Source: Paracoccaceae bacterium
GTDB lineage: Bacteria; Pseudomonadota; Alphaproteobacteria; Rhodobacterales; Rhodobacteraceae
Length of the DNA: 64,000 nt
NCBI GenBank assembly: GCA_024304985.1
Contig: JAMWZC010000001.1
Span: forward strand, 248,001 to 312,000
Reading direction: 5' to 3'
The first letter of the stretch is position 1; every line of letters begins with the position of its first letter. The notes below the pieces were generated by a model. The model saw only the letters and a program-made list of their open reading frames with translations. It was not told the DNA's origin and ran no database searches. This document shows positions 38,760 through 62,740 of the stretch, piece after piece. Made by a program: the position numbers and the translations under genes.

Positions 38760-41700
38760 TTAGCTGCACCCGCTTGTCGCGCCGCAGGTGTTGCACTTCA
38801 TGCAGGTGCCGTTGCGCACCAGCGTGTAGTTGCCGCAATCGCCGCAGGCCTCGCCTTCATAGCCCTGCATCTTGGCTTTGGTGCGGGCATCCATCGTGAC
38901 GGTGCCGCTGGCCATTGCCGTGGTCGTGGTCACGCTGGCCGAGGCACGGAAGCTGGCTTCGGGGACGAGCGTCTGCAGCGCCGAAACAGGATCGGTGCCG
39001 GTCCGCATCAGCTCGTTCATGCCGTTCTGGCCACCTTGAAAGACCACCAGTTCCTGCGGGAGACGCTTGCGCAGATAACCGGTCGAGCTGATCTGCTTGA
39101 GCACCTCAAGGCTGCGCGAGGCTGCGTTTTCCGAGATTTCCGAGACGTTGGATACGCCCTCTTCCTCGCCCCGGCCCAGATCGTCGAAGCTGGCGCCCTG
39201 CGGCTTCACATGGGCCAGATCGGTGCGGTCCAGATAGGACACGGCAAGTTCGCGGAAGATGTAATCAAGGATCGAGGTCGCATTCTTGATCGAGTCATTG
39301 CCCTGCACCAGACCGGCCGGTTCGAACTTGGTGAAGGTGAAGGCATCCACGAACTCCTCCAGCGGCACGCCATACTGAAGACCCACGGACACGGCGATGG
39401 CGAAGTTGTTCATCATCGCGCGGAAGCCCGCACCTTCCTTGTGCATGTCGATGAAGATCTCGCCCAGCTGACCATCGGCATATTCACCGGTGCGCAGATA
39501 GACCTTGTGACCGCCAACGATGGCCTTCTGGGTGTACCCCTTGCGCCGCTCGGGCAGCTTTTCACGGCCACGGGCGATTTCCTTGATGATGATCTTCTCG
39601 ACGATCTTCTCGGCGATGACAGCGGCCTTTTCCTGCGCCGAACCGGTTTCGAGGATTTCCAGCGCCTCGTCATCATCCTCGACCAGCGCAGATGCCAACG
39701 GCTGGCTGAGCTTCGAGCCGTCACGATACAGCGCGTTGGCCTTGACCCCCAGTTTCCAGCTCAACTCATAGGCTTTCTGGCAATCGGTGATCGTTGCATC
39801 GTTGGGCATGTTGATCGTCTTGGAGATCGCGCCCGAGATGAAGCTTTGCGCCGCAGCCATCATGTAGATGTGGCTGTTCACACTCAGATAGCGCTTGCCC
39901 TTCTTGCCGCAGGGGTTGGCGCAATCGAAGATGTGGTAGTGCTTGGGGTCCAGATGCGGCGCGCCCTCAAGGGTCATGGTGCCGCAGACATGGTCGTTCG
40001 CCGCTTCCACATCGGCCTTGCTGTAGCCCAGATGGCGCAGCAGATCGAAGGTCGGATCGTTCAGCTTCTCGGCCGGGATACCCAGCACGTTCTGGCAGAA
40101 CTCGGTTCCCAGCGTCCACTGGTTGAAGACGAAGCGGATGTCGAAGGCCGATCCCAGCGCGCTTTCCACCTTTTCGATCTCGCGTGGGCCAAAGCCGTGT
40201 CCGATCAGGCTGGTGGTGTTGATGCCGGGCGCGTTGCCGATGCTGCCGTGACCGACGGCATAGGACACGATCTCTTCGATCTGGGCCGAACCATAGCCCA
40301 GCTTTTCGAGGGCGGCTGGCACCGAGTGGTTGATGATCTTGAAATAGCCGCCTCCGGCCAGTTTCTTGAACTTCACCAGCGCAAAGTCTGGCTCGATCCC
40401 CGTGGTGTCGCAATCCATCACCAGACCGATGGTGCCTGTGGGCGCGATCACCGAGACCTGAGCGTTGCGGTAGCCGTGCTTTTCTCCCAGACGCAGCGCC
40501 TCGTCCCAAGAGGACATGGCCAGATCGACCAGTCGGGGATCGGGGCAGTTGGCGTGATCCAGCGGCACCGGCTTGGTGGCCAGAGCCTCGTAGCCATCGG
40601 TGGCGCCGTAAGCGGCGTTGCGATGGTTGCGGATGACGCGCAGCATGTGCGTGCTGTTGCGCTTGTAGCCGTCAAAGGCCCCCAGCTCGCCTGCCATTTC
40701 GGCCGAGGTGGCATAGGACACGCCGGTCATGATCGCGGTCAGTGCAGCACACATGGCGCGCCCCTCGTCGCTGTCATAGCCCAGACCCATGTTCATCAGG
40801 AGGCCGCCGATATTCGCATAGCCCAGCCCCAGCGTGCGGAACTCATAGGACAGCTGCGCGATCTCCTTGGAGGGGAACTGCGCCATCATCACGCTGATCT
40901 CCAGCGTCACGGTCCACAGACGGGTGGCGTGCATGTAGTCTTCGACCTGGAACACACCGTCCTTATAGAAGGTCAGCAGGTTCATGGACGCAAGGTTGCA
41001 GGCCGTGTCGTCAAGGAACATGTATTCCGAACAGGGGTTCGACCCGCGGATCGGCCCGTCTTCCGGGCAGGTGTGCCAGTCATTGACCGTGTCATGATAC
41101 TGTATGCCCGGGTCGGCGCAGGCCCATGCGGCATGGCCGATGTCTTCCCACAGATCACGCGCCTTGATCGTCTTGGCGACCGAGCCATCGGTGCGGCGGA
41201 TCAACTCCCAATCGGCGTCGTTTTCAACGGCCTTGAGGAAGGCATCCGTCACGCGGACCGAATTGTTCGAGTTCTGACCCGACACAGAGGCATAGGCCTC
41301 GGAATCCCAGTCGGTGTCATAGGTCGGGAATTCGATCGAGCCATAGCCTTGCTTGGCGTAATCCAGCACGCGCTTGACATAGGTTTCGGGGATCATGACC
41401 TTCTTCGCGCTGCGGATCGCGTCCTTCAGCTGCGGGTTCTTGGACGGATCAACGGAATCTTCCGAGCTGCCGTCCCATGCCTTGATCGCGGCGAAGATGG
41501 CGTTCAGCTTCTGCTCGTGCATCTTGGAGCCGGCAACGATGCTGGCAACCTTCTGCTCCTCTTTCACCTTCCAGTTGATGTATTCCTGAATATCGGGGTG
41601 GTCGGCATCGACGATCACCATCTTGGCCGCGCGGCGCGTGGTGCCGCCCGACTTGATCGCGCCAGCGGCACGGTCACCGATTTTCAGAAAGCCCATAAGG

Positions 41701-42437
41701 CCTGAGGACTTGCCGCCACCCGACAGCCGCTCGCCATCGGCGCGGAGCGACGAGAAGTTGGTGCCGGTGCCGGAGCCGTATTTGAACAGACGCGCCTCGC
41801 GGACCCACAGGTCCATGATGCCGCCATCGCCCACCAGATCGTCCTTGACCGACTGAATGAAGCAGGCATGCGGCTGCGGATGCTCATAGGCGCTGGTGGA
41901 TTTGGTCAGCTCTTTGGTCTGGTAATCCACATAGTAATGCCCCTGCGACGGGCCATCGATGCCATAGGCCCAGTGCAGGCCGGTGTTGAACCACTGCGGG
42001 CTGTTGGGTGCGGCGCGCTGGGTGGCCAGCATGAAACGCATTTCGTCAAAATAGGCGCGGGCATCTTCCTCGGTGGTGAAATAACCACCCTTCCAGCCCC
42101 AATAGGCCCAGGCCCCCGCCAGACGGTCGAACACCTGCTTGGACGAAGTTTCGCCCGTCTTTTCAGTCTTGTCCGAGGCAGGCACCGAGCGCCACAGGAA
42201 CTCGGGCACGCCCTCTTCGGGCACCTTCTTCAGTTTGACCGGAATGCCGGCCTTGCGGAAATACTTCTGCGCTATGACGTCAGAGGCCACCTGCGACCAG
42301 CTGGAAGGCACTTCGACCTCGTCCAGACGGAAAACGACCGTGCCATCGGGGTTGCGGATCTCGGATGCAGTCTTGACGAAATCGAGCTCCGCATATGCGT
42401 CCTGCCCGGCTTTCGTGAATTTTCTCTCGATTTTCAT
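38760..42437 (-). CDS. nrdJ: Adenosylcobalamin-dependent class II ribonucleotide reductase
   Basis: A 1225-residue enzyme reducing ribonucleotides to deoxyribonucleotides, independent of oxygen. The barrel is shown by [60 protein letters not shown] and [18 protein letters not shown]. The C-terminus carries a zinc-ribbon-like set of cysteines: [24 protein letters not shown]. The start ATG 42437 follows GAGATGAGGCAAGTC, which supplies the ribosome-binding site; a start four codons earlier would displace it. No nrdAB or nrdDG is in the window. The leader has NrdR-type boxes and a possible RNA switch (see separate entries). Confidence 0.97.
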
Positions 42438-42550
42438 GACTTGCCTCATCTCATAGCTTTAAATTTCCGATCCCGCGTCATTGCGCGACACCGTCGGACC
42501 GAAACATGAAGGACAAGGCTACCCTGTGGCTTGCCTCATCAATGAGGCAG
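42438..42550 (-). promoter_or_regulatory. nrdJ leader with a repeat of the ribosome-binding site and a complementary arm
   Basis: On the minus strand GATGAGGCAAG occurs twice, at 42440-42450 (nrdJ Shine-Dalgarno) and at 42530-42540. TGCCTCAT (42542-42549) is complementary to both copies. It can close a local hairpin with the upstream copy or pair with the nrdJ site. The repeats are exactly 90 bases apart. Confidence 0.55.
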
Positions 42551-42636
42551 TCCATCCTGCGGATCAGTTTGGCGGCCTCCACATTGCGTGAGCCACCTCT
42601 GCCCGATCTGGTTTTTGTTTGTCCCTCGCCGCGGCC

Positions 42637-42694
42637 CTTATACTCAACACAACATCTAGTGGGTCGCTCTCTCGGCTTACACAATCTGACGTAT
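42637..42694 (-). promoter_or_regulatory. nrdJ promoter with tandem NrdR-type boxes
   Basis: ACACAACATCTAGTGG (42647-42662, plus strand) is close to the NrdR box consensus. A degenerate second copy, ACACAATCTGACGTAT, starts 32 bases further on (42679), the usual spacing of paired NrdR boxes. TATAAG on the minus strand (42637-42642) is a possible -10, with the first box in the promoter spacer. Confidence 0.72.
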
Positions 42695-43036
42695 GAAGGG
42701 CGGCATCGTCAACTTAAGATTTTACCCAACTGACAAGAAAATACGCTTGACCCAGGTTTTAAGCGAGTCGCGCCGCAGTCGTGTGACGCGCGGGATTTCG
42801 GCGGCACTGGGGACAGCTTTGTGGATATGAGTTGAAAGCCGTTGATTTCGGCCCTCTTACTCCCCATTTCTCAGAAGTTGGCTTCAGTCTGGCATTGTTG
42901 CACCCCAAGGTGCGCGCATCCGGGCAAATCGCCGGATGATGCGGAAAGGACACGGGGCAACCACCACATGTTGATGGCAGATCGATTCTCTCGGCCCGAC
43001 TCAGTGACTTCCGCATCGCGTGATCGTTTCCAGATC
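42695..43036. other. Intergenic stretch upstream of the lipoprotein gene
   Basis: About 340 bases between the nrdJ promoter and the lipoprotein gene. Part of it is in frame with the lipoprotein gene, from ATG 42968 onward. I found no other gene, terminator or convincing promoter. Confidence 0.45.
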
Positions 43037-61336: not shown

Positions 61337-62740
61337 ATGTCCTCGCCTGTTGTCACCCGTTTTGCGCCTTCTCCCACCGGCTATCTGCATATCGGCGGGG
61401 CGCGGACGGCCTTGTTCAACTGGCTTTACGCAAGGGCCCGCGGCGGGAAATTCCTGCTCAGGATCGAGGATACCGACCGCGAGCGGTCCACCCCCGAGGC
61501 GACGGCCGCGATCCTCAAGGGGTTGAAATGGCTGGGTCTGGATCATGATGGCGAAGCGATCAGCCAGTTCGCCCGTGCCGCGCGCCATGCGGACATCGCG
61601 CGCCAGTTGCTGGATGAGGGGCGCGCCTACAAGTGCTTTGCCACGCAGGACGAGATCGAGACTTTCCGCGAGGCGGCACGCGAGGCAGGGCAATCGACAC
61701 TCTACCGCAGCCCGTGGCGGGATGCCGACCCCGCCACCCATCCCGACGGCGTGCCATATGTGATCCGCATCAAGGCCCCGCTTGAGGGAGAGACCGTGAT
61801 CGAGGATCAGGTGCAGGGCCGCGTCGTGATCCGCAACGATCAGTTGGACGACATGGTTCTGCTACGCGGGGACGGCACGCCTGTCTATATGCTGGCCGTG
61901 GTGGTGGACGATCACGACATGGGTGTGACCCATGTGATCCGGGGCGACGACCATCTGAACAATGCCGCACGCCAGATGATGATCTATCACGCCATGGGAT
62001 GGACCGTGCCGGTCTGGGCGCATATCCCGCTGATCCATGGCCCCGATGGCAAGAAATTGTCCAAGCGGCATGGCGCGCTGGGTGTCGAGGAATATCAGGC
62101 GCTTGGCTATCCTGCTGCGGGTATGCGCAACTATCTGACACGTCTGGGCTGGAGCCATGGAGATGACGAGTTCTTCACCGATGCCCAAGCGCTGGCATGG
62201 TTCGATCTGGCGGGAATCGGCAAGTCACCGGCCCGGCTGGATTTCAAGAAACTTGAAAACATCTGCGGTCAGCATATCGCTGCGACCCCCGATGCCGCGC
62301 TGCTGCATGAGCTGATGGATTTCATGGTCGCAACGGGACAGCCCGCCCTGGCCTCCCACAAGAAAGCCATGCTTTACGCCGCCATGCCACATCTGAAAGA
62401 ACGGGCGAAGACTTTCTTCGAACTTCTTGAAAAGGCTGAGTTCATCCTTGCCGATCGCCCGATCGTGGCGGATGAGAAAGCGGCGGTGCATCTCAACGAT
62501 GTATCCCGTGGTATACTGAGAGAATTGACGCCGCATTTGCAAAATGCTAGCTGGACCCGGGGCGATCTTGAACACGTCCTGAACGAATTCGCACAGACGC
62601 AGGGAATGACTTTCGGCAAGCTGGCTGGCCCCATGCGGGCGGCCCTCGCAGGGCGCAGCGCTACGCCGAGTGTGTTCGACATGATGTTGGTGCTGGGCCG
62701 CGAGGAGAGCCTTGCCCGCCTGACAGATGCCGCCGCCTGA
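61337..62740 (+). CDS. gltX: Glutamyl-tRNA synthetase
   Basis: A 467-residue class I synthetase charging tRNA-Glu. The HIGH-type motif is [18 protein letters not shown] (residues 11-28) and the KMSKS loop is [11 protein letters not shown] (240-244 for KLSKR). Other blocks: [36 protein letters not shown] and [16 protein letters not shown]. Alphaproteobacteria often have two copies, one of which may misacylate tRNA-Gln; this window shows only one. It is 47 bases from comEC and 82 bases before gltA. Confidence 0.97.

Follow-up and report, generated by a model that had tools for sequence, protein, structure and literature searches.

An NrdR-type promoter and a conserved hairpin in the nrdJ leader of a Paracoccaceae bacterium, with a one-species repeat of the ribosome-binding site

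Results

The window analyzed here is a 64,000-nucleotide stretch of a Paracoccaceae genome, and the site of interest is the region upstream of nrdJ, whose protein matches the B12-dependent ribonucleotide reductase equivalog NF005736 at 2227 bits (Table 1). As the preliminary description had pointed out, the Shine-Dalgarno (SD) region GATGAGGCAAG is found twice on the minus strand, at 42440-42450 and again exactly 90 bases upstream at 42530-42540, with no further exact copy on that strand across the window. We also confirmed that TGCCTCAT (42549-42542) is an exact 8-base complement of ATGAGGCA, which lies within both copies. An in-frame ATG is present inside the SD region (window 42437-42449), 12 bases ahead of the nrdJ start; four of the six congeners have an ATG there, but an in-frame ATG within the last 15 bases was seen in only 8 of 144 family leaders. 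Antisense to nrdJ, an 889-aa open frame runs along the plus strand (window 39036-41705) and most likely just reflects GC-rich codon usage.

Table 1. Features of the nrdJ locus, in window coordinates
Feature	Position	Strand	Basis or remark
nrdJ, B12-dependent ribonucleotide reductase, 1225 aa	38760..42437	minus	start ATG 42437
nrdJ SD region GATGAGGCAAG	42440..42450	minus	family GGGGCA/GAGGCA counts
Hairpin CGCG-CAATGA-CGCG	42474..42487	minus	recurring loop
Arm CCTTGTCC, strand 2 of candidate helix P1, also partly SD-complementary	42511..42518	minus	pairing tests
Local hairpin TGCCTCATTGATGAGGCA	42532..42549, extended by TGG/CCA to 42527-42554	minus	8 alignment pairs
5' element GAGGGACAA, strand 1 of candidate helix P1	42619..42627	minus	GGGACA enrichment, swap test
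NrdR-like box 2 CCACTAGATGTTGTGT	42647..42662	minus	just downstream of predicted start
NrdR-like box 1 ATACGTCAGATTGTGT	42679..42694	minus	overlaps -10
Predicted -10 element CAGATT	42683..42688	minus	family promoter pattern
Predicted -35 element TTGACG	42707..42712	minus	family promoter pattern

Relatives were gathered through NrdJ, for which matches were found in 97 of 101 genomes searched (part of these weak), in 288 of 295 family genomes, and, with a second query, in 381 of 394 family genomes; the loci for leader extraction were chosen among the matches listed. A scan of named contigs, from which the best 80 of 563 were taken, included Roseovarius, Shimia, Ruegeria, and Sulfitobacter among others, so “family” here means the Rhodobacteraceae/Roseobacter group. 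Leaders were extracted from 170 loci, from these 80 named loci, and from 82 of 90 new loci, the other 8 belonging to genomes already in the set. Those with a promoter score below 11 or outside set lengths were excluded. The genus comprises seven genomes and provided six leaders; in the seventh (L007), the nrdJ match begins at residue 139. Duplicates were removed by locus id in the promoter count and by identical last 150 nt in the CAAYGA-hairpin, arm-word (n = 228), SD/arm base, and closest-relative counts. Congeners L002-L006 were excluded from the interior-word enrichment, the element/arm and SD-arm swaps, the positional scan, the within-leader partner test, the arm-word, SD/arm base, and closest-relative tests, and the SD repeat and complement tests (n = 135), and were retained in the shuffle tests (48 and 133 leaders) and the stability and accessibility test (140 leaders).

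The SD itself is well kept across the family, reading GGGGCA in 52 and GAGGCA in 42 of 144 leaders, and GRGGCA is scarce in the window's own genome (6 of 385 upstream regions, counting ORFs of at least 250 aa with the first ATG as start in 464 kb). We considered this conservation as proof of special control and dropped it, since gltX keeps its own SD word too: AAAGGT was found in 20 of 29 gltX loci and GRGGCA in 25 of 50 nrdJ loci in the same comparison. There was no kept SD word before trpE (top word in 6 of 22 loci); no start was found in 1 of 30 gltX and 8 of 30 trpE loci. The gltX word, upstream of window position 61337 (loci L292-L321), is thus gene-specific and family-conserved, and some genes keep a specific SD.

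Upstream of nrdJ, 144 of the 164 family loci reach at least 11 of 15 for a promoter pattern of the form TTGACC-N18-CAGATTGTG. Its consensus was taken from the 131 loci with a spacer of exactly 18 bases, and spacers of 17 or 19 were permitted at a penalty. A sequence like box 2, CCACTANATNTNGTGG, is present at a match of at least 10 of 13 in 125 of the 131 loci with exact 18-base spacing. The two 16-mers of the window, separated by a 16 bp spacer, we take to be NrdR boxes by the consensus for such boxes, and the genome also contains a match above cut-off to TIGR00244, presumably the NrdR model. With box and model named in this way, the locus has both marks of an NrdR-type promoter, two boxes with a 15-16 bp spacer and an nrdR gene in the genome. 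NrdR-regulated RNR promoters likewise have two boxes 16 bp apart at the promoter of the RNR gene, and we saw no difference of the putative boxes here from them. A distance of 15-16 bp between NrdR boxes is given for Listeria, Streptomyces, and E. coli (PMC12051234). A generic sigma-70 scan returned no site at the nrdJ promoter region. From the family pattern, the nrdJ transcript is predicted to start near 42675, giving a leader of roughly 238 nt. Because the promoter overlaps box 1 and box 2 lies just after the predicted start, the main control of nrdJ is most likely transcriptional repression by NrdR. In some leaders (L008, L075, L103, and others), two or three GGGACA-like words are clustered after box 2, and these clusters could also be bound by a protein, as DNA or as RNA.

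Within the leader, the preliminary description had claimed a local hairpin formed with the first copy of the repeat, and this hairpin is kept in the genus by compensatory changes. In a MAFFT alignment of the six congeners, 87.0% of the cells of its stem are paired vs. 70.5% in shuffled alignments (reached in 0 of 500), six of the eight pairs show two-sided changes, and the covariation score is 0.625 vs. 0.327 shuffled (0 of 500) and at most 0.325 when the register is slid. Two of the five measures were less extreme: 33 of 500 shuffles reached the two-sided pair count, and 154 of 500 reached the number of further pair types. The stems read TGCCTCAT/ATGAGGCA, TGCCCC/GGGGCA, CCGCACTG/CAGTGCGG, CGCCTT/AAGGCG, and CCGGCTT/AAGCCGG, and the sixth congener (L003) has a mismatch. 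Within the genus, selection therefore maintains the hairpin stem even as its sequence changes.

The same hairpin dominates the predicted ensemble of the full transcript, where its six outer pairs have probabilities of 0.89-0.98. Folding predictions also suggest that the leader as a whole is moderately structured. The 241-nt leader piece has a folding z of -2.93, and across 140 family leaders, the mean z of the interior is -1.04 vs. -0.49 upstream of the promoter, with values below -2 in 29 interiors and 9 upstream regions. Genus-by-genus MAFFT alignment with RNAalifold gave no clear common fold because the leaders diverge fast. A loop of the form CAA[TC][GA]A on a stem of at least 3 was found in 24 of 233 leaders, with differing stems. 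This CAAYGA-loop hairpin recurs in many genera at -20 to -110 of nrdJ, mostly near -45; its loop is mostly G-C closed, and of the 6-base loops on stems of at least 4, CAATGA (14) and CAACGA (6) were seen most often. The hairpins of the leader probably shape it, in its stability and in keeping the SD free, rather than serving as a ligand switch.

Beyond the local hairpins, the family leaders are marked by a 5' element and a downstream arm that may pair over a long range as a helix, P1. GGGACA is present in 57 of 135 leaders vs. 12.1 expected, and GGGACAG in 34 vs. 2.6 (n = 135), at a median of base 43 of the transcript. Pyrimidine words are enriched some 86 bases upstream of the start codon (TGTCTC in 13 vs. 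1.6 expected, n = 135). The GGGACAG element scored 15.50 with its own downstream arm, and swapped elements scored 14.63 (z 3.87, 1 of 2,000, n = 128, with L033 and L035 entering with empty arms at score 0). A positional scan peaked at the element (z 3.0, n = 113), and the window 30 bases upstream reached 2.6. Unanchored complementarity tests gave a mixed picture; in the one of 133 leaders, 21 were counted for the 5' region and 14 for the SD. The family-wide excess for P1 was modest, with 30 of 133 leaders in the lowest decile, and in the genus, P1 is paired in 81% of cells with a two-sided change in none of its nine pairs. Still, P1, made of GGGACAG and an arm roughly 80 bases ahead of the start codon, is better supported than the arm-SD pairing of the preliminary description.

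The 5' element resembles the SD, and the P1 arm could in principle serve both. Translational riboswitches work through anti-SD and anti-anti-SD pairing, and the nrdJ leader is like them in its possible mutually exclusive pairings near the SD. It differs in that no conserved aptamer-like core was found and in that conservation of the SD pairing is tentative at best. Within the Rhodobacterales, the SAM/SAH motif before metK is described (PMC2864571). We considered a switch in which the 3' strand of P1 (42511-42518, resembling CUGUCUY in part of the family) is the anti-SD, an idea that we think unlikely. The arm would pair either with the 5' GGGACAG, which would mimic the SD sequence GRGGCAG, or directly with the SD, and a signal would set the balance.

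Several results point toward such a switch. The words enriched in the arm complement GGGACAG and the SD as a compromise between the two (TGTCTC 17 vs. 2.7 expected, the strict TGTCCC 7 vs. 3.5, in 228 leaders). In the genus, one register of P1 arm and SD gives runs of 7-12 pairs in all six congeners, with 79% of cells paired vs. 36-48% when slid. Ensemble folding pairs the P1 arm with the SD in L002, L003, and L004 (0.67, 0.40, 0.44) and with the 5' element in L001 and L006 (0.97, 1.00). The arm also beats other windows of the same leader as an SD partner (mean quantile 0.63, n = 116), in part because the 5' element resembles the SD. Finally, A or G at SD base 2 tracks U or C at position 6 of the arm motif YTGYCYY (counts 10, 4 and 4, 14; p 0.007, 28 leaders). 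This association held within GC strata (p 0.009, 28 leaders) with a null upstream control, and rose with new leaders to counts of 10, 4 and 6, 24 (p 0.0016 after the fact, 39 leaders). Among closest relatives of different SD type, 7 cases were for it, 2 against, and 3 tied; SD type follows relatedness (147 of 212 neighbors alike vs. 115.7 expected), and arm type does not (21 of 39 vs. 21.3). The 39-leader and closest-relative tests kept L206, a copy of L006 that contributes one U in the G-type row, against the prediction.

Other results argue against it. Swap tests of P1 arm and SD were flat (z -0.47 to 0.43), and in the genus, their register shows one two-sided change and covariation within shuffles (331 of 500). 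The YTGYCYY motif was found after the fact. Looser arm motifs gave weaker associations (p 0.07-0.17 in the 28-leader set, 0.024 with new leaders), and arm position 4, for which there was no prediction, also associates with the SD (p 0.055, then 0.046 with new leaders). Among the 82 new leaders, none combined an A-type SD with the arm motif, and that set alone therefore gives no test of the association, although 10 of its 11 G-type arms show the predicted C. On average, the SD is less accessible with shuffled interiors than in the native leaders (0.450 vs. 0.487, the native value being in the top fifth in 51 of 140 leaders). In L005, the P1 arm pairs with neither the 5' element nor the SD, and in both L005 and L006, the predicted partner of the SD is the NrdR-box region. 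We therefore regard the SD/P1-arm covariation as suggestive only. That the leader is an undescribed translational element, in which GGGACAG mimics the SD GRGGCAG and competes with it for the arm CUGUCUY between them, is a tentative proposal that we doubt. It is likewise doubtful that this element adds a post-transcriptional layer to NrdR control, with the window's hairpin as an insulating stem within it.

At the other extreme, the leader could be an ordinary NrdR-regulated 5' untranslated region with an incidental hairpin and no function at the RNA level. The fast divergence of the leaders, their small excess of stability, and a gltX SD that is equally conserved and gene-specific would all be reasonable on this account. 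However, it leaves the two-sided changes in the hairpin and the enrichment of the GGGACAG element and the CAAYGA-loop hairpin unexplained, and we consider it very unlikely.

The preliminary description had instead read the repeat as a switch, in which TGCCTCAT pairs with either the first copy or the SD and so controls translation of nrdJ. Within the window, the coincidence is striking. When the leader interior was shuffled with dinucleotides preserved, 24 of 20,000 shuffles repeated 11 or more bases of the last 20 nt, and just 2 of 20,000 combined such a repeat with a complement of 8 or more. The claim that this is unlikely by chance thus stands for a single leader, but that leader was one choice out of 64 kb, which carries a substantial look-elsewhere cost. 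Among 135 leaders, the SD is repeated over at least 9 bases in two (the window's 11-mer and a 9-mer in L078) and has an exact complement of 10 in one (L094). In a 161-nt fragment without the 5' part, the arm-SD pairing prevails with a probability of about 0.70, so the alternative is physically possible in the window's species. In the full predicted transcript, its probability falls to about 0.02 (0.018), and forcing it costs 3.7 kcal/mol (-95.7 vs. -99.4).

By contrast, the relatives give this switch no support. The repeat is not conserved, an outcome that the preliminary description had named as refuting it: the longest repeats of the SD region in congeners L002-L006 are 4, 6, 6, 5, and 7 bases, the longest exact SD complements are 6, 5, 4, 5, and 6, and the nearest congener has a repeat of 4. 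An arm complementary to both copies is not maintained in the genus alignment, where the arm-SD pairing occupies 77% of cells with a covariation of 0.283 vs. 0.223 (73 of 500, within shuffles). Across the family, a leader neither repeats its own SD better than a swapped one (497 of 2,000, n = 135) nor complements it better (1,344 of 2,000, n = 135), and the SD-arm swap was flat (z -0.56); swap tests are weak on the SD core because SDs are conserved. An early shuffle test of SD vs. interior (48 leaders, congeners included) gave 6 and 8 leaders at p ≤ 0.05, a small excess (combined p 0.039 and 0.004), and a test of SD vs. arm region in 133 leaders gave 14 at p ≤ 0.05 vs. 6.7 expected and 16 in the lowest decile. 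Because none of the five congeners that gave a leader keeps the repeat and the arm-SD match, the data do not support the switch in the form proposed. They already refute it as a conserved device, and as originally written we consider it extremely unlikely. The 3' strand of the window's hairpin happens to equal the SD, and the repeat with its arm-SD match is a one-species coincidence. Of the broader proposal that the leader exerts a different translational control over a B12-dependent enzyme, the version built on this arm is lost in the congeners, and the hairpin is real.

Known RNA families did not account for the leader. At gathering score, Rfam 15 gave tRNAs only in the window and 38 related loci, and in window 42300-42960 at E up to 10, there was nothing relevant, neither a cobalamin riboswitch nor RF03034. 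The earlier statement that no cobalamin riboswitch is visible here therefore held in both searches. Such a riboswitch (RF00174) would fit a B12-dependent enzyme, yet it is absent from the leader; the genome's single match sits away from nrdJ, on contig C6. The nrdJ RNA motif RF03034 is listed before nrdJ of Streptomyces lividans (PMC8079986). Like the present leader, it sits upstream of nrdJ, but there was no covariance-model match here, and none of 120 family genomes, this one included, has a match above cut-off (40.3 bits). Sub-threshold matches at E up to 1 were seen in 23 genomes at 24 places among the matches listed, 21 of them away from nrdJ and 3 in genomes without a listed nrdJ position. 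The literature searched, which covered the available parts of PMC8632094 and PMC11109978 and left most subscription journals outside its scope, contained no description of a Rhodobacterales nrdJ leader.

Least probable of all is transcription attenuation or leader-peptide control: one terminator-like site lies at 42527-42513, but shuffles average 0.6, the scan found none at the hairpin, and a stable hairpin with a U run is lacking, and although a 25-codon frame from ATG 42555 passes through the hairpin, an ATG stands at the corresponding position in only two of five congeners (L005, L006), with frames of different length and unlike peptides, and L002-L004 are without it. Both the terminator and the leader peptide were dropped as candidates.

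Discussion

Overall, we read the site as the NrdR-type leader of nrdJ with a real, conserved hairpin, in which the repeat and arm-SD match are a one-species coincidence and there is probably no ligand switch. On balance we hold this reading to be the probable one, with some reserve. The site would then be the roughly 238-nt 5' leader of nrdJ, and NrdR, at box 1 over the promoter and at box 2, would repress its transcription. In the transcript, P1, formed by the 5' GGGACA element and the arm about 80 nt before the start codon, may fold in the cell to enclose hairpins, one of them being TGCCTCAT/ATGAGGCA, and a small hairpin would stand ahead of the ribosome-binding site.

A striking repeat-plus-complement is thus best seen as a lineage coincidence atop a real hairpin. 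At the same time, an NrdR-type promoter together with a long structured nrdJ leader is now documented across the family. If the switch between the P1 arm and the SD were true, B12-dependent DNA-precursor synthesis in these marine bacteria would gain a second, RNA-level control.
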